A DNA stretch of 7,030 nucleotides from Nitrospirota bacterium. Its GTDB lineage: Bacteria; Nitrospirota; Nitrospiria; Nitrospirales; UBA8639. The notes beneath the pieces are model-generated. The model searched no databases. It was given only the letters and a program-made list of their open reading frames with translations, and was not told the origin of the DNA. The DNA lies in contig JAOUNC010000147.1 of the NCBI GenBank assembly GCA_029881175.1, forward strand, positions 1-7,030, written 5' to 3'. Each line of letters begins with the position of its first letter. Position 1 is the first letter of the stretch. The position numbers were made by a program, and so were the translations under genes. Positions 1 to 7,030 of this stretch are shown here, piece by piece.

Positions 1-1285
1 AGGAGAAATCTCCGGAAAATGAGGAGGAGGTCCAGGGGGATTGCTTGCCATTGGTATCTCGCTCGACCCCTTGTAGAACGCGTTTGAAGACCTGTTCCAC
101 AGGAACGCCCGGCGTTGAGATATGTTGAAGCAAATGTTTGGTGTAGAGGCCATTTCGATCGTCCCCGTCACTCGCAACATTTCCAGGACTGGTGGCATAG
201 GCGATCAACGTGCCTTTCACCGCTGCGCTGCTGACGACTGCGAGTCCCCGACTAGATGAACGAAAACTTTTGGCAAACGGGTTGTCCCGACAGGCATCAA
301 GGATGACCATGTTGAGGCCATTCCGTGCTTCGCCCATTTTTCCAAGGACTTGTCCCATATTCACCGCCTTATAGCGAACATCGCTTTCACTCTCAATCGT
401 GGCATTCACTGGTATGAGGTAGTTTTCTCCACCCACTTGGACGCCATGGCCGGCGTAATAAAAGAGGCCGACTCCACCTTGATAGAGTTGTCGACCGAAT
501 TCACTGATGGCCTGCTCCATTTGTTCTTGCCCGGCATTGAGTTTCAGCGTGACGTCAAATCCGAGTTTCTCAAGTGCATCCCCCATATCCTGTGCATCAT
601 TGGCGGGGTTTCTGAGACTTCCAATCTGGTATTCACTGTTGCCGATTATAAGCGCGGTACGTTTTCCCAGTTCATCCGGAATCGCGAAAGGCAATTTGGT
701 ACTAGAGTTTGAGGCTCGTGATGAAGGTGAGGGAATGTTCGCAGATTGCAGGTTGGCGAAAGAAGCTGATGGTTGTCCGGTATAAATGGTGACTTGCATG
801 GAGCCAGAATTGTCTTGAATCCAGGGGAAAGGATCATTGATCGCCAAATATATTTCTCCTTCCCCTTTGGCGCGGATTTCTAGCTCTGATCCCACTTCAA
901 AGGGTTTTCCTTTGTTTCCAATCTTGCCCATTAACGCATTGGCATTAATCCATGGGACCTCTTTCCCGGTCCCGTCCAACCCCTCCGGTCCGCTCCAGAC
1001 GTTTAACCCAGGGGCTTGGCTCCACTTGCCCATGCCCAAAATTTTCACGGTGTCCCCAGAGGTCACTTGCACGCCAGATGGTTGCCAGGGTTGATTGGCC
1101 TGGATTGTGGACGTGTGGCCCTTGAGATGGGTGGTGTCCATTCCAGAGGCGGGTTCATAGTTGATTTGGTCGGCATCATACGATCGAGAAGCGGAGAAAC
1201 AGCCGGGCAACAAGAGTCCTAAGAGAAGAGAAAGAAGCAACATGGTGTATCGGGGGGTATTAGCCATTTTTCGTTTGAGCATCAT
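1..1285 (-). CDS. Caspase-family (peptidase C14) lipoprotein with LecA-like domain, 3' end outside window
   Basis: 428 codons are visible and the frame runs off the window edge. Residues 1-29 form a lipoprotein signal peptide: basic start, Leu-rich core, and lipobox LPGC with Cys29 as the predicted lipidated residue. Residues about 60-170 resemble the PA-IL/LecA galactose-binding fold: GDTVKI, WSGPEG, KIGNKG, then IYLAIND and DNSGS, where Asp151, Asp158 and Asn159 sit at the LecA calcium-ligand positions. A Ser/Ala-rich linker (172-198) leads to a caspase p20-like domain starting at KRTALIIGNSEY. Its catalytic His280 lies in YYAGHG (bases 446-448) and Cys332 in DACRDNPF (bases 290-292), so the dyad is intact. 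The protein is expected to be an envelope-anchored cysteine endopeptidase of the metacaspase/paracaspase-like type, usually specific for basic residues; its substrate is unknown. The ATG at 1285 was chosen because AGGAG lies 10 bases upstream; 1282, 1267 and 1243 are in-frame alternatives. Any domain beyond residue 428, possibly DUF4384, cannot be seen. Confidence 0.93.
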   Translation of the reverse strand, partial: MMLKRKMANTPRYTMLLLSLLLGLLLPGCFSASRSYDADQINYEPASGMDTTHLKGHTSTIQANQPWQPSGVQVTSGDTVKILGMGKWSQAPGLNVWSGPEGLDGTGKEVPWINANALMGKIGNKGKPFEVGSELEIRAKGEGEIYLAINDPFPWIQDNSGSMQVTIYTGQPSASFANLQSANIPSPSSRASNSSTKLPFAIPDELGKRTALIIGNSEYQIGSLRNPANDAQDMGDALEKLGFDVTLKLNAGQEQMEQAISEFGRQLYQGGVGLFYYAGHGVQVGGENYLIPVNATIESESDVRYKAVNMGQVLGKMGEARNGLNMVILDACRDNPFAKSFRSSSRGLAVVSSAAVKGTLIAYATSPGNVASDGDDRNGLYTKHLLQHISTPGVPVEQVFKRVLQGVERDTNGKQSPWTSSSFSGDFS

Positions 1286-1629: not shown

Positions 1630-1802
1630 TCACTGATGCCGGAATCATTGCGTCATGCGGCGGTATTGAGGAAGTCGGTGGTGGGGAGTCATTCCTGTCG
1701 GCTTGTTTGTGAGGTGTGGAATAAAAAGTGTAGACCCGGTGCGTGCGTCAGAAAAGCCGTTGGGGAATGATGGCAGGTTCATTCATTGATGGCGAATGGG
1801 TT
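1630..1802 (-). pseudogene. Decayed 3' tail of a DUF4384 lipoprotein gene (remnant A)
   Basis: Read on the minus strand, the segment codes for EPAIIP, then NGFSDAR, then RMTQ, stop, FRHQ, stop. This aligns in order with EPAIIP, NGYSGAR and RITRWFRHQ at the end of the intact protein at 3137-4495. Lesions are visible: one extra G in the run at 1762-1765 shifts the frame after EPAIIP, a stop at 1645-1647 replaces the conserved Trp, and several codons are lost around the AGEDL motif. DNA similarity is clear along most of its length, for example at 1671-1697 and 1754-1780. No N-terminal, linker or core DUF4384 sequence remains. It begins 12 bases after the stop codon of the PH-domain gene. No product is expected. 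Confidence 0.85.
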
Positions 1803-1814
1803 ATCTGAGAGGAA

Positions 1815-2393
1815 TTATGATGTTCGAGTTGTCAGGGATTTTTGAGCGTCACGGATGTGTTGATAGACGGTCTTGGCATTTTCCAGAAGATCGAAGGATG
1901 GGCCCAAGAAGGATTCTGCCCCTGGCCATGGCATTCGTCCGAACCAGGGGCCCGCAAGGGATGGTGGTCCAAAGGTGATCGTGCCGCTTCCGTCCGACTC
2001 CTCAGTCAGAGAGATATTGTTGAGGGTGTTCAGATTGAGGGAGGTCATCGTTTTCTTGAAAATTCCTGAGGCAATGATGAGCCGTTCGTTGGAGATGCCG
2101 TAAAAGGTTTTTTCTCGTTGTTTGGCTTCCAAGAAGAATCGTCCGGCGATCATGTACAGACCGACCAGCACAAAGGGGAGCCCAAACAGTTGAGCCACCA
2201 ATGGGCCGTCTTCTTGAATGACGGTCCATTCCCAGAAAAACGCAAACCCGCCCCATAACAAACTAAACGGAATCATGAACAGGTCTGATCGCCGGAATCT
2301 CATCCCCTGCAGCGGTTGCCCTGCCCATACGAGTCGTTCTCCCGGCTCCAGCTCCTGTTGAATCACTTCCTGTGCGTCAAAGGTCATGATCAT
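1815..2393 (-). CDS. Membrane protein with bacterial PH-like domain
   Basis: 192 residues. The N-terminal 30 residues are cytoplasmic-looking and include the LEPGERLVWAGQP motif that often opens bacterial PH-domain membrane proteins. Two hydrophobic segments follow (about 37-57 and 64-87), then a soluble part: residues 97-142 contain FYGISNERLIIASG, SLNLNTLNNISL and GSGTITFG, the strand pattern of bacterial PH domains (DUF304/bPH group). An alpha-helical end (about 166-186) may close the PH fold. Such proteins are inner-membrane proteins of unknown function; nothing here points to a substrate. The ATG at 2393 has AGGA about five bases upstream; an ATG at 2387 is possible. The gene is flanked on both sides by DUF4384 tail remnants, 35 bases upstream and 12 bases downstream, and looks intact. 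Confidence 0.85.
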   Translation of the reverse strand: MIMTFDAQEVIQQELEPGERLVWAGQPLQGMRFRRSDLFMIPFSLLWGGFAFFWEWTVIQEDGPLVAQLFGLPFVLVGLYMIAGRFFLEAKQREKTFYGISNERLIIASGIFKKTMTSLNLNTLNNISLTEESDGSGTITFGPPSLAGPWFGRMPWPGAESFLGPSFDLLENAKTVYQHIRDAQKSLTTRTS

Positions 2394-2428
2394 GCATGTC
2401 CTGTAAAGTTACCCATTCTGGATTTGGA

Positions 2429-2530
2429 TTATTGATGGTGGAACCAGTGAGTGATGCGGAGGTCTTCGCCAGCTGGTTTGAAAGGGAATGCAGCGGGAAG
2501 AATGGGTTGTTTTTCACGGCTCAGCTTGAT
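2429..2530 (-). pseudogene. Decayed 3' tail of a DUF4384 lipoprotein gene (remnant B)
   Basis: About 33 minus-strand codons remain, ending at the stop 2429-2431. They include ILPAAFPFK followed by AGEDLRITHWFHHQ, matching LLPTTYFVK and AGEDLRITRWFRHQ of the intact gene at 3137-4495. Bases 2451-2470 are identical to 3159-3178. Stop codons lie just upstream in this frame and no start codon or core DUF4384 sequence is present. The remnant is not the other half of remnant A, since both carry the same C-terminal end. It lies between the broken toxin (41 bases away) and the PH-domain gene (35 bases away). Confidence 0.88.
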
Positions 2531-2571
2531 TCATTACATCTGATTTTGCATTGACCTTAGACATTTTACGT

Positions 2572-2856
2572 TCACCCGCTTTTAGTCCGGGATAGGTTTT
2601 GTCGGCAATCCAATACCGCATGGTTTCGAATCATGTCTCCCTCGATATTGTAGTAGACGGCAAAGGGGAAACGCTTCGAAAGACAACGCTGATAGCTAAA
2701 GGTCGTTTGATGAATGCCAGCGTATACAAGAAGGGAGTCAATGTTTGAAAATAGGGAGTCTCAAAAATAAGAGCCGAGCTTGGGTTCTCGGTCTTCGTAG
2801 AAATGGAAGCCCTTGATTAAATCTTCTTGGGCTTCATCAAGGATCTCGAAGTTCAC
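2572..2856 (-). pseudogene. ParE/RelE-like toxin, interrupted by one stop codon
   Basis: The frame starts at GTG 2856, overlapping the antitoxin stop in the arrangement GTGA, and runs 94 codons to a stop at 2572-2574 with one internal TGA at 2761-2763 (codon 32). Before it: FEILDEAQEDLIKGFHFYED and LGSYF. After it: DSLFSNID, YAGIH, SKRFPFAVYY and AVLDCRQNLSR. This is the usual course of ParE/RelE-superfamily toxins: helical hairpin, then the RFPFAVYY strand and a C-terminal strand with Arg. The family commonly has an ordinary residue (such as Leu or Arg) where the TGA stands, so a single base change explains it. The family includes ribosome-dependent mRNA interferases and gyrase inhibitors; which one this was cannot be told. 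The 31-residue product would lack the active half, so the toxin is probably dead. A sequencing error is possible. Confidence 0.85.
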
Positions 2857-3071
2857 GAGAACTTATTGCGAATGTTGGCTTTGGCGGTTTCCCAATCGCT
2901 AAACCTCGTCTTCCCCTCGTTCAGTCGCTGTTGGCGCTCATCAAGAGTCGTTTTGTGCCAAGCGGGGGATTCAACGGCATCTGGAGTGCGTGGCAGATCA
3001 TCCCAGAGTAATTCCATCAGGGCAAGTTTTTCATGGAGAGTCATTTCATGGAGGGGTAAGTTGACTGGCAT
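2853..3071 (-). CDS. Antitoxin of the putative addiction module family (PF09720-like)
   Basis: 72 residues from the ATG at 3071. The sequence has the family layout: MPVNLPLHEMTLHEKLALM, LLWDDL, SPAWH, LDERQQRLNEG and FSDWETAKANIR, predicted mostly helical. These antitoxins bind and neutralise the ParE/RelE-like toxin encoded directly after them, and usually repress their own operon. The toxin frame starts on the antitoxin's stop codon with a 4-base overlap, suggesting translational coupling. I prefer 3071 over the longer ATG at 3107 because MPVNLPL resembles the usual family start and the extra 12 residues (MPFHYSLLYTHF) do not; neither start has a strong Shine-Dalgarno. The gene is intact although its toxin is not. 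It follows the DUF4384 gene by 65 bases. Confidence 0.85.
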   Translation of the reverse strand: MPVNLPLHEMTLHEKLALMELLWDDLPRTPDAVESPAWHKTTLDERQQRLNEGKTRFSDWETAKANIRNKFS

Positions 3072-3136
3072 AAAGTGAGTATACAACAGGGAGTAGTGAA
3101 ATGGCATCCCTGACCGTATGGGTAACGGCTGCGTCC

Positions 3137-4495
3137 TTACTGATGCCTGAACCAGCGGGTGATGCGGAGGTCTTCGCCGGCGGTTTTGACGAAGTAGGTC
3201 GTGGGGAGTAATGCCTGCTGCTGATGTTGTGACGTTTGGAATGCAAAGGGAGATGAGGCGGCGCGTGCACCGGAATAGCCGTTGGGAATGATGGCGGGTT
3301 CGCTGACGGCCAATGGTTTTTCGGCTGGGTGGCGTTCGCGGCCGGTGATGGTGGTGAGAATTTGTTCGATATCCTGGCGTGGGGCGTGGGAGGCCACCAC
3401 GAAGATGGTTTCAATACCTTTGAATTGATCCAGGCTGAACCAGTTGGTGCCCTCTGGTAAGACATGTTGCTGCCCGGCCTTGACCGGGTTGGCGAACGGG
3501 CTGGAAGCAGGCGGGAACAGGCCTTGAGCCCATGCCGAGCCGTCCACCGCAATGACATAGATGTAACAATCGGTGTTTGCGCGGAACATGACGCGGAATT
3601 TATCGCCTGCCTGTGGGTTGCCTCTCCCATCCAACAGAATGTCGCCGTCCTTGATGGGCAGGTACGACGACACCCCATTCACCATTTGTTTTTTGACCAG
3701 TAGGACATCTAGGCTGATGGGCGCGGCGGTAGGCTGCGCCGTTCCGGGCTGAAAGGTCTGGTATGCGGGGGTTCCGGCTGGTTCATTCGGATAAGCAGGT
3801 ATGGATGCCGTTGCGGTAGTGCCATAGGGCGTTGGATAGGGTTGGCCTTGCTGCGAGGTATCTGGATACGGTTGGCTCTGACTAGGATATGGAGGTTGAT
3901 TCGGATACGGGTTCTGCTGATTGGGATACACATTCTGATTATTCGGATAGGCATTGGCCTGCTGGTCTTGCTGAGGATATTGATTTTGGGGAGCGGAGGA
4001 GTATCCCGGGACTGAGGTTTGTTGATTGGGATAGACCGGATTGTTGGAAGAGGGATTTCCTTGTGGTCCTTGGTTTGGGTACTGGTTATTTAGATTGGGA
4101 GTATTCCCGCCGTATTGGGGCTGTTGGGTTTGATAGGGATCATACGGTTGTTGAGAGTAGTCTGGGGAAGATGGATTTCCCTGGGAAGGGGAGTAACCTT
4201 GTGCCGTTTGGTTATCTTGATTGGGGTACCCCGTTTGTTGAACTCCGCCCGGTTGAATGTAAGGATTAGCGATGATGCCTTGCGGCAGCATCGGATTGGT
4301 CGGCTGTTGCAGTGACACCAGCAGGTTTTCCATGTTTTTTTCATGGGTGTCCCCATAGTTGGAGAAGGCGGTTTGTAAGAGACTGGCGCCGAATTCCACC
4401 AGTGGCGGAATCAAAAAGGGGAGTGCCATGCAGCCGCTGAAGAGAGCGCTGCTGATCAGGAAGAGCCAGGGACGTGATGGAGAGAATTTAGACAT
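3137..4495 (-). CDS. DUF4384 lipoprotein with Pro/Gln/Tyr/Asn-rich linker (copy 1)
   Basis: 452 residues. A signal peptide ends in lipobox FSGC with Cys22 as the lipidated residue. Residues about 36-63 (FGASLLQTAFSNYG onward) resemble the same region of the next copy. Residues about 65-255 are a low-complexity linker rich in Pro, Gln, Tyr and Asn with recurrent YPNQ units, likely disordered. The DUF4384 domain spans about 259-370: KDGDILLDGRGNPQAGDKFR, TDCYIYVIAVDG, WAQGLFPP and NWFSLDQFKGIETIFVVAS. A tail of about 50 residues ends AGEDLRITRWFRHQ. DUF4384 has no assigned activity; it occurs with caspase and kinase domains, so an adaptor, ligand-binding or envelope role is inferred only. The ATG at 4495 fits the signal peptide, but only CCCCT precedes it, so translation may be weak or dependent on the gene upstream. 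This copy is the closest match to both decayed tails downstream. Confidence 0.92.
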   Translation of the reverse strand: MSKFSPSRPWLFLISSALFSGCMALPFLIPPLVEFGASLLQTAFSNYGDTHEKNMENLLVSLQQPTNPMLPQGIIANPYIQPGGVQQTGYPNQDNQTAQGYSPSQGNPSSPDYSQQPYDPYQTQQPQYGGNTPNLNNQYPNQGPQGNPSSNNPVYPNQQTSVPGYSSAPQNQYPQQDQQANAYPNNQNVYPNQQNPYPNQPPYPSQSQPYPDTSQQGQPYPTPYGTTATASIPAYPNEPAGTPAYQTFQPGTAQPTAAPISLDVLLVKKQMVNGVSSYLPIKDGDILLDGRGNPQAGDKFRVMFRANTDCYIYVIAVDGSAWAQGLFPPASSPFANPVKAGQQHVLPEGTNWFSLDQFKGIETIFVVASHAPRQDIEQILTTITGRERHPAEKPLAVSEPAIIPNGYSGARAASSPFAFQTSQHQQQALLPTTYFVKTAGEDLRITRWFRHQ

Positions 4496-4609: not shown

Positions 4610-6205
4610 CTATTCGTGCCGGAACCAGCGGGTGAGCCGGAGATCTTCCCCGGCAGTTTTCGAGAAATAACTGGTTGGCATAATGGTCTGATCCTGTCCT
4701 GATCCTCCGGAGAGGCTGAACGGTTGAGCGCTTGGCCGAGCCCCTCCGACACCATAGGGCACCATGGCGACTTTCGTCACCTGTTGGGGGTTTTCGGTCG
4801 CGGGCCGTTCGCGTCCGGTAATGCTTTGTAAAATTTCTTCGAGGTCCACCCGTTTTTCTTGCGAGGCGACGAAAAAGATTGTTTCAATCCCCTTGTATTG
4901 ATCCAGGCTGAGCCAGTTGTTGCCTTCGGGCAGAGTATATTCTTGACCGGCTTTGACCGGATTGGCCAAAGGTGAAGTGGAGGGGGGGAAGAGGCCCTGC
5001 GCCCAGCCTGTGCCATCAATGGCGACTACATACACATAGCCATCGGTATGGGGGCGAAACATGATTCGAAATTTGTCTCCGGCTTTTGCATTCCCACGGC
5101 CATCTTTCAACACATCACCGTCGTTGATCGGTAGCATGACGGTCGCCCCATTCCGAATCGTTTTTTTCATCATGACCACATCCAATCCTATCGGAGTTCC
5201 CACAACTCCTTCTTGACCTGAATACCCTGTCAGAGCGTTTGGATCTTGTGGATAGCCTTGTTGCGCGTAGGGGTCTTGTTGGATGGGTTGTTGCCCATAC
5301 GGGTCCGGTTGAATTGGCTGTTGAGCATACGGATCTTGCGGATAGCCTTGTTGTGCGTACGGGTCCGGTTGAGTGGGCTGTTGAGCATAGGGCTCTTGGG
5401 GGTAGCCTTGTTGCGCGTATGGATCTTGAGGATATCCTTGTTGAGCATAGGGATCGGTTTGCCCGTATGGATTTTGCCCCTGCGGTTGACTATATGGGTC
5501 GTATCCCCCTGTTTGATAAGCAGGATCATAGGGTTGGCCGGGTTGATTACCAGGAGGATAGCCCTGAACCTGTTGTTGCGGGTTACAGGGCTCACTCGGG
5601 AATGTTGCGTGCGGTAATTGTCCGGGGACGCCGCGAGGCTGTATGTCCCCTTGAATGTTGGGATCAAATTGTTCAATGTTTTCCACAACCGCCGGCTGGA
5701 ATTGCCCTTCGTCGACGAAGCCCGGATCACTAGGAAATCCGGTGTTGGGATCAATCGGTCCTAAATTGTCTTGTCCAGGAAATCCGGAGGGGTCTTGGAT
5801 GGGGAAGCCGGTATTGGGATCGACTTGGTTCTCATACCCATTACCCGGTGGATACCCTTGATTATCATATGGGTTGCCTTGCTCCACAGGTTGTTGTGCA
5901 GAGTTTTTCTCTTTTTTCTTTTTAGGCGTCACCAATTTGGTCAGGAGCTTGTTGAGTTTTCCCGTATATTTTTGGCTGTAATTCTGTGCAGCGGTGGCGA
6001 GCAGGGTTCCACCAATATTGGCGAGTGGACTCAGAATGGCTTGCTGAATAAAGGAGCTTTGTGGGCTGAGAGAGGCTTGTGTTCCACCTGGTTGACAAGG
6101 ATTTCCTTGAGAAAATGAACCGGGCCCATTTGGAGTTGCACAAGCGGCGATCATGGTGGCAATGACCAACATTGCCGTTATGGATGTGATTGTTGTGTTC
6201 TTCAT
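4610..6205 (-). CDS. DUF4384 lipoprotein with decapeptide-repeat linker (copy 2)
   Basis: 531 residues. The signal peptide ends in IAAC with Cys22 as the lipidated residue. Residues about 63-93 (LANIGGTLLATAAQNYSQKY, then KLNKLLTKL) are followed by a lysine cluster, KKKKEK, at 95-100. A long Pro/Gln/Gly/Tyr/Asp linker (about 104-335) contains DPNTGFP twice and seven consecutive decapeptides of the DPYAQQGYPQ type (251-320). The DUF4384 domain covers about 339-448: INDGDVLKDGRGNAKAGDKF, TDGYVYVVAIDG, WAQGLFPP and LDQYKGIETIFFVAS. The tail ends AGEDLRLTRWFRHE. Gly replaces the Cys that copies 1 and 3 carry in TDCY. The start has AGAGG six bases upstream, overlapping the stop of copy 3, so the two genes are almost certainly co-transcribed. 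Probably an envelope-anchored protein with an extended stalk; its biochemical role is unknown. Confidence 0.93.
   Translation of the reverse strand: MKNTTITSITAMLVIATMIAACATPNGPGSFSQGNPCQPGGTQASLSPQSSFIQQAILSPLANIGGTLLATAAQNYSQKYTGKLNKLLTKLVTPKKKKEKNSAQQPVEQGNPYDNQGYPPGNGYENQVDPNTGFPIQDPSGFPGQDNLGPIDPNTGFPSDPGFVDEGQFQPAVVENIEQFDPNIQGDIQPRGVPGQLPHATFPSEPCNPQQQVQGYPPGNQPGQPYDPAYQTGGYDPYSQPQGQNPYGQTDPYAQQGYPQDPYAQQGYPQEPYAQQPTQPDPYAQQGYPQDPYAQQPIQPDPYGQQPIQQDPYAQQGYPQDPNALTGYSGQEGVVGTPIGLDVVMMKKTIRNGATVMLPINDGDVLKDGRGNAKAGDKFRIMFRPHTDGYVYVVAIDGTGWAQGLFPPSTSPLANPVKAGQEYTLPEGNNWLSLDQYKGIETIFFVASQEKRVDLEEILQSITGRERPATENPQQVTKVAMVPYGVGGARPSAQPFSLSGGSGQDQTIMPTSYFSKTAGEDLRLTRWFRHE
5246..5455 (-). repeat. 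Seven tandem 30-bp repeats encoding DPYAQQGYPQ-type decapeptides
   Basis: Residues 251-320 of copy 2 divide into seven units of exactly ten residues, each starting DPY or EPY. Four read DPYAQQGYPQ; the others read EPYAQQPTQP, DPYAQQPIQP and DPYGQQPIQQ. Degenerate units flank the block on both sides (NPYGQT before, DPNALTGYSG after). The DNA repeat unit is 30 bp, which keeps the frame when units are gained or lost by slippage. The composition suggests a flexible, extended or tyrosine-rich self-associating linker. Confidence 0.92.
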
Positions 6206-6217
6206 GGGAAACCTCTA
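6206..6217 (-). promoter_or_regulatory. Coupled stop codon and Shine-Dalgarno between copies 3 and 2
   Basis: The stop TAG of copy 3 (6215-6217) and the AGAGG site (6212-6216) share two bases; six bases then separate AGAGG from the ATG of copy 2 at 6205. This compact junction supports one mRNA and translational coupling of the two lipoproteins. Confidence 0.75.
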
Positions 6218-7030
6218 CTCATGCCGGAACCAACGAGTCACTCGTAGGGCTTCTCCGGCTTTTTTGGTGAAATAGGTGGTTGGAATGAGTCCTTGGTCTT
6301 GACCTTGAGGACTGGGTGACTGCTGCCCGATGATAAATGGCGTTGTACTCATTTGACTGCGATGAAACCCAGCCGGAATGATGGGTGCTTGAGTGACTTG
6401 TTGTGGCGTCTCTTGGGGGTGGCGCTCTTTCCCGGCGATGTTCGCTAAGATGTCTTCAATGTCCTGCCGTTTCTCGGGCGATGCGACAAAAAAGATCGTT
6501 TCGATCCCTTTGAATTGATCCAGGCTTAACCAATTATTGTTTTCGGGAATAATATATTCTTGACCCTGTTTTACAGGATTGGCAAACGGACTTGTCAGGC
6601 TGGGGAAGATCCCCTGTGCCCAAGCCGATCCGTCAATGGCAATAATATAGACATAGCAATCGGTGTTGGCTCGAAACATAATGCGAAACTTATCTCCAGC
6701 CTGCGCGTCGCCTCGGCCATCTTTGAGGATGTCGCCATCCTTAATGGGAATCATGATTTCGGCCCCATTTCTTTTGGTTTTTTTCACCATGGCCACATCC
6801 AATCCTATTGGAGTTCCCACAACGCCATCTTGACCAGAATACCCTGATTGCGCGGTCTGATTTTGAGGGTAACCTGGTTGAGCTGGTTGTTGCCCATACG
6901 GATCCTGGGGATAGCCTTGCTGGGCATAGGGATCGTTGGGGTAGCCCTGTTGCCCGGGTTGCTGCCCATAGGGATCGTTGGAGTAACCGGGCTGGGTTGG
7001 TTGCTGATAGGGATCTTGGGGGTAACCCTG
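6215..7030 (-). CDS. DUF4384 lipoprotein with DPY-repeat linker (copy 3), 5' end outside window
   Basis: 271 C-terminal residues are visible and the frame is open at the window edge, so the signal peptide and N-terminus are not seen; a lipobox is expected by analogy with the two other copies. The visible part begins inside a Pro/Gln/Tyr-rich linker with repeated DPYxQQ units (visible residues 1-56). YSGQDGVVGTPIGLDVAMVK then leads into the DUF4384 domain: IKDGDILKDGRGDAQAGDKF, TDCYVYIIAIDG, WAQGIFPS and LDQFKGIETIFFVAS. The tail ends AGEALRVTRWFRHE. The GTG at 6820 that could be read as a start lies inside the repeat-to-domain junction and is not a real start. Copy 3 is closest to copy 2 in the junction and core and is translated just before it. 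Function unknown beyond the family. Confidence 0.93.
   Translation of the reverse strand, partial: QGYPQDPYQQPTQPGYSNDPYGQQPGQQGYPNDPYAQQGYPQDPYGQQPAQPGYPQNQTAQSGYSGQDGVVGTPIGLDVAMVKKTKRNGAEIMIPIKDGDILKDGRGDAQAGDKFRIMFRANTDCYVYIIAIDGSAWAQGIFPSLTSPFANPVKQGQEYIIPENNNWLSLDQFKGIETIFFVASPEKRQDIEDILANIAGKERHPQETPQQVTQAPIIPAGFHRSQMSTTPFIIGQQSPSPQGQDQGLIPTTYFTKKAGEALRVTRWFRHE
6863..7030 (-). repeat. DPY-type tandem repeats in the linker of copy 3, continuing past the window
   Basis: DPY recurs at spacings of 13, 14 and 10 residues within units such as DPYAQQGYPQ and DPYGQQPAQPGYPQ. The units are the decapeptide of copy 2, some with a four-residue insertion (PAQP or PGQQ type). The repeat continues beyond the window edge. 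Confidence 0.85.

Follow-up and report, generated by a model that had tools for sequence, protein, structure and literature searches.

Displaced 3′ ends of a DUF4384 gene suggest repeated recombination in its 3′ end in Nitrospirota

Introduction

The entry of small recombinase-free modules, such as toxin–antitoxin (TA) pairs, into chromosomes is seldom visible. The 7,030 nt stretch of Nitrospirota DNA analysed here, called the window throughout (C395:1-7030, from a draft genome of 509 contigs that is 82% complete), raises the question of how such modules come to be lined up behind a gene with copies of that gene's 3′ end between them. The gene is c1, the last of three DUF4384 genes (c3, c2, c1) on the minus strand, and it is followed by a TA pair, an orphan tail (B), a PH-like gene, a second orphan tail (A) and a caspase-domain gene, an order already recognised in the first-pass annotation. 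Comparison with relatives suggests that the modules behind c1 probably arose by repeated recombination in its 3′ end, leaving displaced tails. Displaced gene ends of this kind are scars that mark joins and hint at the order of events, and relatives reveal module-free sites. The features concerned are:

3137..4495 (−), c1, the last DUF4384 gene, with the modules behind it (PF14326, E 6e-10)
3137..3181 (−), last 45 nt of c1, common to the orphan tails and the likely crossover zone
2853..3107 (−), antitoxin gene of module 1 (PF09720, E 2.6e-15), with an alternative start at 3071
2572..2862 (−), ParE/RelE-like toxin frame of module 1, interrupted by an in-frame stop, ends counted by hand
2429..2530 (−), orphan tail B, with clear likeness to c1 only at about 2429-2481
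1815..2393 (−), module 2, a PH-like gene of 192 amino acids (bPH_2, E 6e-4, 20.5 bits, below the Pfam cut-off of 22)
1630..1802 (−), orphan tail A, a frameshifted c1 3′ end
2..1285 (−), caspase-domain gene, truncated by the contig end (PF00656, E 4.8e-40)

Orphan Tails Are 3′ Ends of c1

Both tails match the end of c1 (tail B, 83% over 53 nt, E 2.6e-9; tail A, 77% over 126 nt, E 5e-18), and a repeat search placed them in one family (D4) with the ends of c1, c2 and c3. That the remnants carry the C-terminal end of a DUF4384 gene, as first proposed, is thus borne out. Over the last 45 nt, similarity to c1, c2 and c3 was 0.86, 0.71 and 0.68 for tail B, and 0.63, 0.50 and 0.50 for tail A. Six loci with an intact c1 were compared (the window and genomes G002, G019, G014, G001 and G027). 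Orphan tails are present in four of them, seven tails in total, and in all seven between-module tails, as well as in three c1 scars in other genomes, the last 45 nt resemble c1 more than either c2 or c3. Of the two tails in G014, and likewise in G001, the one nearer c1 is better preserved.

A search with the whole of c1 (low-complexity sequence masked) found no full, 5′ or middle copy downstream of c1 in any of the six loci; 3′ pieces alone were found in four, and nothing in G002 and G027. A decayed fixed array would show the same gene order everywhere, with full-length genes where the remnants stand; this was not seen. The first-pass annotation had derived the remnants from two separate copies. 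Two decayed full genes are not required, and displaced ends of one gene fit better. Among its spacings, 65 nt (measured to the antitoxin start at 3071), 35 nt and 344 nt were confirmed, and those of 41 and 12 nt depend on the tail starts chosen (2530 and 1802).

The tails behind TA modules, taken as a group, show clear likeness to c1 only in the last ~45 nt (0.86). Just upstream of this segment the value is 0.52–0.54, against a random 95% level of 0.51, and just after the stop codon it is 0.44 (n = 24). The upstream limit of the tail differs between events, lying about 45, 105 or 170 nt before the stop codon. The idea that tails are selected functional sites was considered and rejected: tail B of the window and the G019 tail are 84% identical over the last 51 nt, which does not exceed the 86.6% identity of the whole flank–TA–tail block between the two genomes.

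Similarity Switches at the Tail

The modules between tails vary from genome to genome. Apart from the window, the elements behind c1 are, in order:

G014: DUF4143 ATPase gene, tail 1, TA, tail 2, unknown gene, IS1595 transposase gene
G001: HigBA, tail 1, decayed TA, tail 2, caspase gene (78% amino acid identity to that of the window)
G019: TA, tail, unknown gene (196 amino acids)
G002: unknown gene (318 amino acids)
G027: FRG-domain gene

Module contents are thus TA pairs, a DUF4143 ATPase, FRG, PH-like or unknown proteins. No secretion domain was found in the proteins scanned, and none of the scanned module proteins was recognised as a site-specific recombinase, although an IS1595 transposase gene does lie behind tail 2 of G014. 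An integron integrase was likewise not seen among the scanned proteins, in a scan that fell short of every open reading frame and on contigs that are short. The toxin frame of module 1 has a relative in G013 (locus L103) that just misses the ParE_toxin cut-off (E 1.8e-4, 22.4 bits; cut-off 23), and the PH-like gene has no match among 58 relatives at E 0.001.

In G014, the series tail 1, flank, TA and tail 2 is colinear with the c1 end, flank, TA and tail B of the window (82%, 795 columns), and tail 1, flank and TA of G001 align with the same window stretch (74% over 694 columns). Upstream of tail 1, similarity is at the random level in both (0.43 and 0.49). The window is therefore a site without the ATPase and without HigBA, and both relatives retain the older TA block behind another module. 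The TA tail of G019 and the DNA following it match the c1 scar of G017 and the DNA following that (74% over 644 columns), so that G017 keeps a join without the TA module.

When similarity was computed in segments counted from the stop codon, the TA–tail block of four genomes gave 0.79 well upstream and 0.83 within the last 45 nt; after the stop, all six pairs fell to 0.44, the random level. In these four genomes, then, one TA–tail block runs at its stop codon into a sequence that differs each time. Between intact c1 genes, similarity immediately behind the stop averages 0.46 (15 pairs, with a maximum of 0.74). Tail 1 of G014 and G001 shows 0.87–0.91 to the c1 of the window before the stop and 0.71–0.75 after it, and 0.87–0.97 to the c1 of its own genome before the stop and 0.43 after it (n = 2). 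These values place the switch at the stop codon or inside the tail. Since the TA–tail block meets four sequences at the stop, and the G014 and G001 modules stand between c1 and a window-like c1 end with its flank, the junctions, as read from the alignments, fall within the tail or at its end. The recombination reading of the first-pass annotation is supported in both respects: relatives differ in the modules between tails, and similarity switches within the tail homology or where it ends.

The 3′ End of c1 Is Conserved

When c1 is divided into ten blocks, the one made up of its last 57 nt is the best conserved in 13 of the 15 species pairs (the exceptions are G002–G019 and G002–G014). In this block the window differs from G001 and from G027 by 1 nt, against 7–17 in the other blocks, and differences among the three are 1–2 nt. 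Agreement at four-fold sites is 0.74 for the last 30 codons (12 usable) and 0.54 elsewhere (73), a contrast with p 0.012 when codons are treated as exchangeable. This conservation could reflect exchange of the c1 end or constraint. On both strands, the c1 end of the window, tail 1 of G014 and the tail of G019 fold no better than shuffled sequences (z −0.3 to +1.0). Integron attC sites were rejected as an identity for the repeat, none of these three copies forming an unusual hairpin on either strand.

Distribution of c1 and Decay in a Sister Clade

The last 197 residues of c1, used as query, matched 10 of 20 genomes of the genus. Five have an intact c1 (G000, which is the window's own genome, G002, G019, G014 and G001), three have the c1 tail alone (G011, G015 and G017) and two a middle fragment (G010 and G018). 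No match was found in the other ten, several of which are incomplete. One of those without a match is G012 (73% complete), the sister of the window's genome by rpoB, so the best strain comparison is missing. In the family, 13 of 48 genomes gave matches. G027, from another genus, has c3, c2 and c1 (c1 at 85%), and G023 and G030, with two genes each (best 67% and 64%), were left out of the six c1 loci. The named relatives with c1 are all Nitrospirota, Nitrospirae or Nitrospirales metagenome genomes (six loci), and no c1 relatives were found in viral contigs or plasmids.

The gene order in G002 and G019 is ABC transporter, egtD, aminotransferase, a reversed caspase-DUF4384 gene, ECF sigma factor, anti-sigma factor, c3, c2 and c1 (ABC transporter, egtD, aminotransferase and, below, opgG were named by eye, and the anti-sigma factor was read from its position). 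Downstream of c1, G002 has a variable stretch and then opgG, and G027 keeps the same order as G002 from the caspase-DUF4384 gene through opgG. In G015, G010 and G018, opgG is within about 1.6 kb of the aminotransferase gene, with a c1 scrap in between. The c1 tail of G017 is immediately behind the aminotransferase gene, and the G011 contig begins at the c1 tail and continues into opgG. The c3–c2–c1 cluster has been lost from its usual place in one clade, with c1 scraps remaining (L091, L092, L055; L054, L053). The scars and fragments of this sister clade are plain decay after loss of the cluster. The rpoB placement of 19 genomes groups G014 with G000 and G001; G019 belongs to the other clade, together with the scar-bearing genomes. 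G002 gave no rpoB match and is absent from this placement.

Gene-End Repeats around Modules Elsewhere

Duplicated gene ends also flank related modules away from c1. In G013 (L103), a TA pair of the same family has on one side the 3′ end of a UvrA-like gene (named by eye) and on the other an orphan 134 nt copy of that end (83%), and in G005 (L096) a DUF4143 gene stands between an orphan uvrA 5′ end and the intact uvrA (196 nt, 84%).

Flanking repeats were counted in two sets of loci. The first comprised 25 module loci, of which 6 were dropped for short flanks and 5 of the remaining 19 lie at c1. Nine of the 14 non-c1 loci have flanking repeats (E 0.01), five of them dispersed. The second comprised 30 ParE loci, 10 of which were dropped, and repeats (at least 40 nt, E 1e-4) were found in 10 of 20, seven of them dispersed. 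Control loci had no repeats of at least 40 nt, either in the first set (0/32, with two matches of 26 and 32 nt; 5 of 37 dropped, some rpoB loci having incomplete flanks) or in the ParE set (0/23; 7 of 30 dropped). Non-dispersed flanking repeats therefore occur in 7 of 34 module entries, some of which coincide or overlap (L107/L173, L165/L179), against 0 of 55 controls (Fisher p 0.0009, computed with 53 controls; 55 on recount). The matches, mostly named by eye, are mixed: UvrA-like or uvrA ends, a hydrolase 5′ end, a tRNA-like stretch, a regulator end, the end of an insertion sequence transposase gene and one attC-like repeat.

Three further observations concern repeats in these genomes. A dispersed intergenic repeat is present in about 25–30 of the fetched loci and often flanks TA genes in the genus (L105, L107, L109, L115, L162, L173, L174, L179). 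Two contigs of G017 (L110, L116) start within genes of the same antitoxin family and contain the UvrA-like tail repeat of L103, which looks as though it had broken the assembly. Repeats with inverted ends, attC-like by eye, lie near ParE genes in L176, L162 and L177 and may point to an integron array in the genus.

Mechanism and Alternative Explanations

If the modules entered by recombination in the 3′ end of c1, incoming DNA would supply a new c1 end together with a module, and the old c1 end, with everything behind it, would be pushed downstream. The likeliest route would be homology-facilitated illegitimate recombination, in which homology in c1 would anchor one end and the other end would be joined at a position that varies (about 45, 105 or 170 nt upstream of the stop). 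Tails recombining with each other would also delete modules, and displaced tails and some modules would then decay. That each module was gained and not lost is an inference, as are the direction, the enzymes and a donor whose c1 gene was already followed by the module. Three genomes outside the genus are without tails, which favours gain.

Several points weigh against this account. Gain and loss are not fully separable, since excision between tails gives the same module-free joins, and a donor-derived copy of the c1 end cannot be told from a resident one. The tail 1 junctions of G014 and G001 lie within a few bases of each other, and could, judging from their sequences, represent one shared event followed by a swap of modules. 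The c1 flank of G019 matches that of G014, yet G019 is without the ATPase and tail 1, so imprecise loss also occurs. In the window, tail B, the closer to c1, is more similar to it than tail A, yet is shorter. Tail 2 of G001 is the weakest case (0.77 to c1, 0.70 to c2), its protein matching c3 best. No relative shows a site without the PH-like module, and most relatives are draft or metagenome assemblies. The flanking-repeat test is supportive only, being retrospective and its matches heterogeneous.

Plain decay, in which tandem duplicates of c1 with modules between them lost the 5′ parts of the extra copies by deletion, was the alternative already raised in the first-pass annotation. It accounts for the sister clade, where nothing of c1 is left but a 3′ scar in G011, G015 and G017 and a middle fragment in G010 and G018, and G019 has lost part of a module imprecisely. 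At the intact-c1 loci it is unlikely: no second full, 5′ or middle c1 lies downstream in any of the six, all seven between-module remnants are 3′ ends, and independent deletions would hardly join one TA–tail block to four sequences at the stop codon. A slightly smaller chance is given to a site-specific recombinase acting from elsewhere, with the last ~45 nt of c1 as attachment site and the modules as cassettes. The conservation of the c1 end, including its four-fold sites, would suit such a site, and the extra modules of G014 and G001 are the ones nearest c1, as in an integron; but no such recombinase was recognised among the scanned module proteins (the IS1595 transposase notwithstanding), the three copies folded form no exceptional hairpin, the 5′ junction varies among three positions, and the same-family TA pair of G013 is flanked by the end of another gene.

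It would be a long shot to see in the last ~45 nt of c1 a dedicated recombination site, belonging to an integron-like accretion system without an integrase of its own. The c1 3′ end, whose nucleotide sequence is conserved across genera, would then take up TA and defence-like modules one after another, and the tails would date and order the insertions. Least probable of all is break repair with a long target duplication, by which a staggered break in the c1 3′ end would be filled around captured DNA, with no donor c1. Duplicated gene ends of 134–225 nt do flank three related modules elsewhere (L103, L096, L114), but at c1 the duplication stops at the stop codon (similarity after the stop is 0.43, n = 2, and 0.44, n = 24), where a random break would often reach into the flank. 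Repeated recombination in the c1 3′ end thus remains the probable explanation for the intact-c1 loci.

Other Genes of the Window

Two further DUF4384 genes precede c1:

4610..6205 (−), c2 (PF14326, E 2.4e-12)
6215..7030 (−), c3, truncated by the contig end (PF14326, E 4.2e-12)

Copies of the c3 type are present in G002, G019, G014, G001 and G027. DUF4384 is the sole domain recognised in c1, c2 and c3 at E up to 1, with no Rhs/YD repeats and no other trafficking domains. Tandem 30 nt repeats at 5230-5490 (c2) and 6860-7030 (c3) encode linkers rich in Gln, Pro and Tyr.

The caspase gene (2-1285 in the window; L052, L056, L057, L080) follows a c1 tail in the window and, behind tail 2, in G001. 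It is found beside a pterin dehydratase-like gene (named by eye) in G008 and G009, and G013 has a caspase remnant in the same pterin dehydratase-like surroundings. The caspase gene seems to have moved.

Comparison with Known Systems

The literature listings searched gave no report of gene-end tails of this kind. If the account given here is true, a genome-wide search for such tails could measure the additive entry of modules outside secretion loci.

The first-pass annotation likened the locus to Rhs or polymorphic-toxin loci, where orphan tips, that is displaced 3′ ends, are strung behind an intact gene. Such tips are also mentioned in the Vibrio cholerae study discussed below (PMC5361080). 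Rhs tips are variable toxins. The C-terminal 197 residues of c1 are 84–90% identical between the window and its five relatives (G002, G019, G014, G001 and G027), so the picture of a variable tip fails; at c1 the end is conserved and the tails are degenerate. Some mobile elements, among them the staphylococcal cassette chromosome (SCC) at orfX and islands at tRNA genes, integrate where a gene ends, on its 3′ side. There, as here, the gene stays intact and the far side is marked by a copy of its end; unlike those elements, the scanned modules encode no recognised site-specific recombinase and the junction is not fixed. Integron cassette arrays also have a repeat behind each module and additions beside a fixed end, but at c1 no integrase was recognised, no unusual hairpin was found and the repeat varies in length.

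Effector swapping linked to vgrG in Pseudomonas aeruginosa (PMC11751169) has its dominant breakpoint at the vgrG 3′ end. In both cases the main breakpoint is where the upstream gene ends, and breakpoints further downstream are less precise, but vgrG swapping replaces effectors, whereas modules accumulate behind c1 and leave tails. By analogy, the closest known process is sequential displacement in effector loci of the type VI secretion system (T6SS). In the Vibrio cholerae T6SS study (PMC5361080), successive effector–immunity modules enter and shift older genes and an effector 3′ end back; homology-facilitated illegitimate recombination is offered there as a perhaps, and a likeness to integrons is remarked upon. 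The displaced pieces in that account are immunity genes and an effector 3′ end, whereas at c1 a conserved DUF4384 gene has its end displaced in non-coding form, and nothing there points to secretion. Common to both are a constant upstream gene, new modules adjoining it and older parts shifted back.

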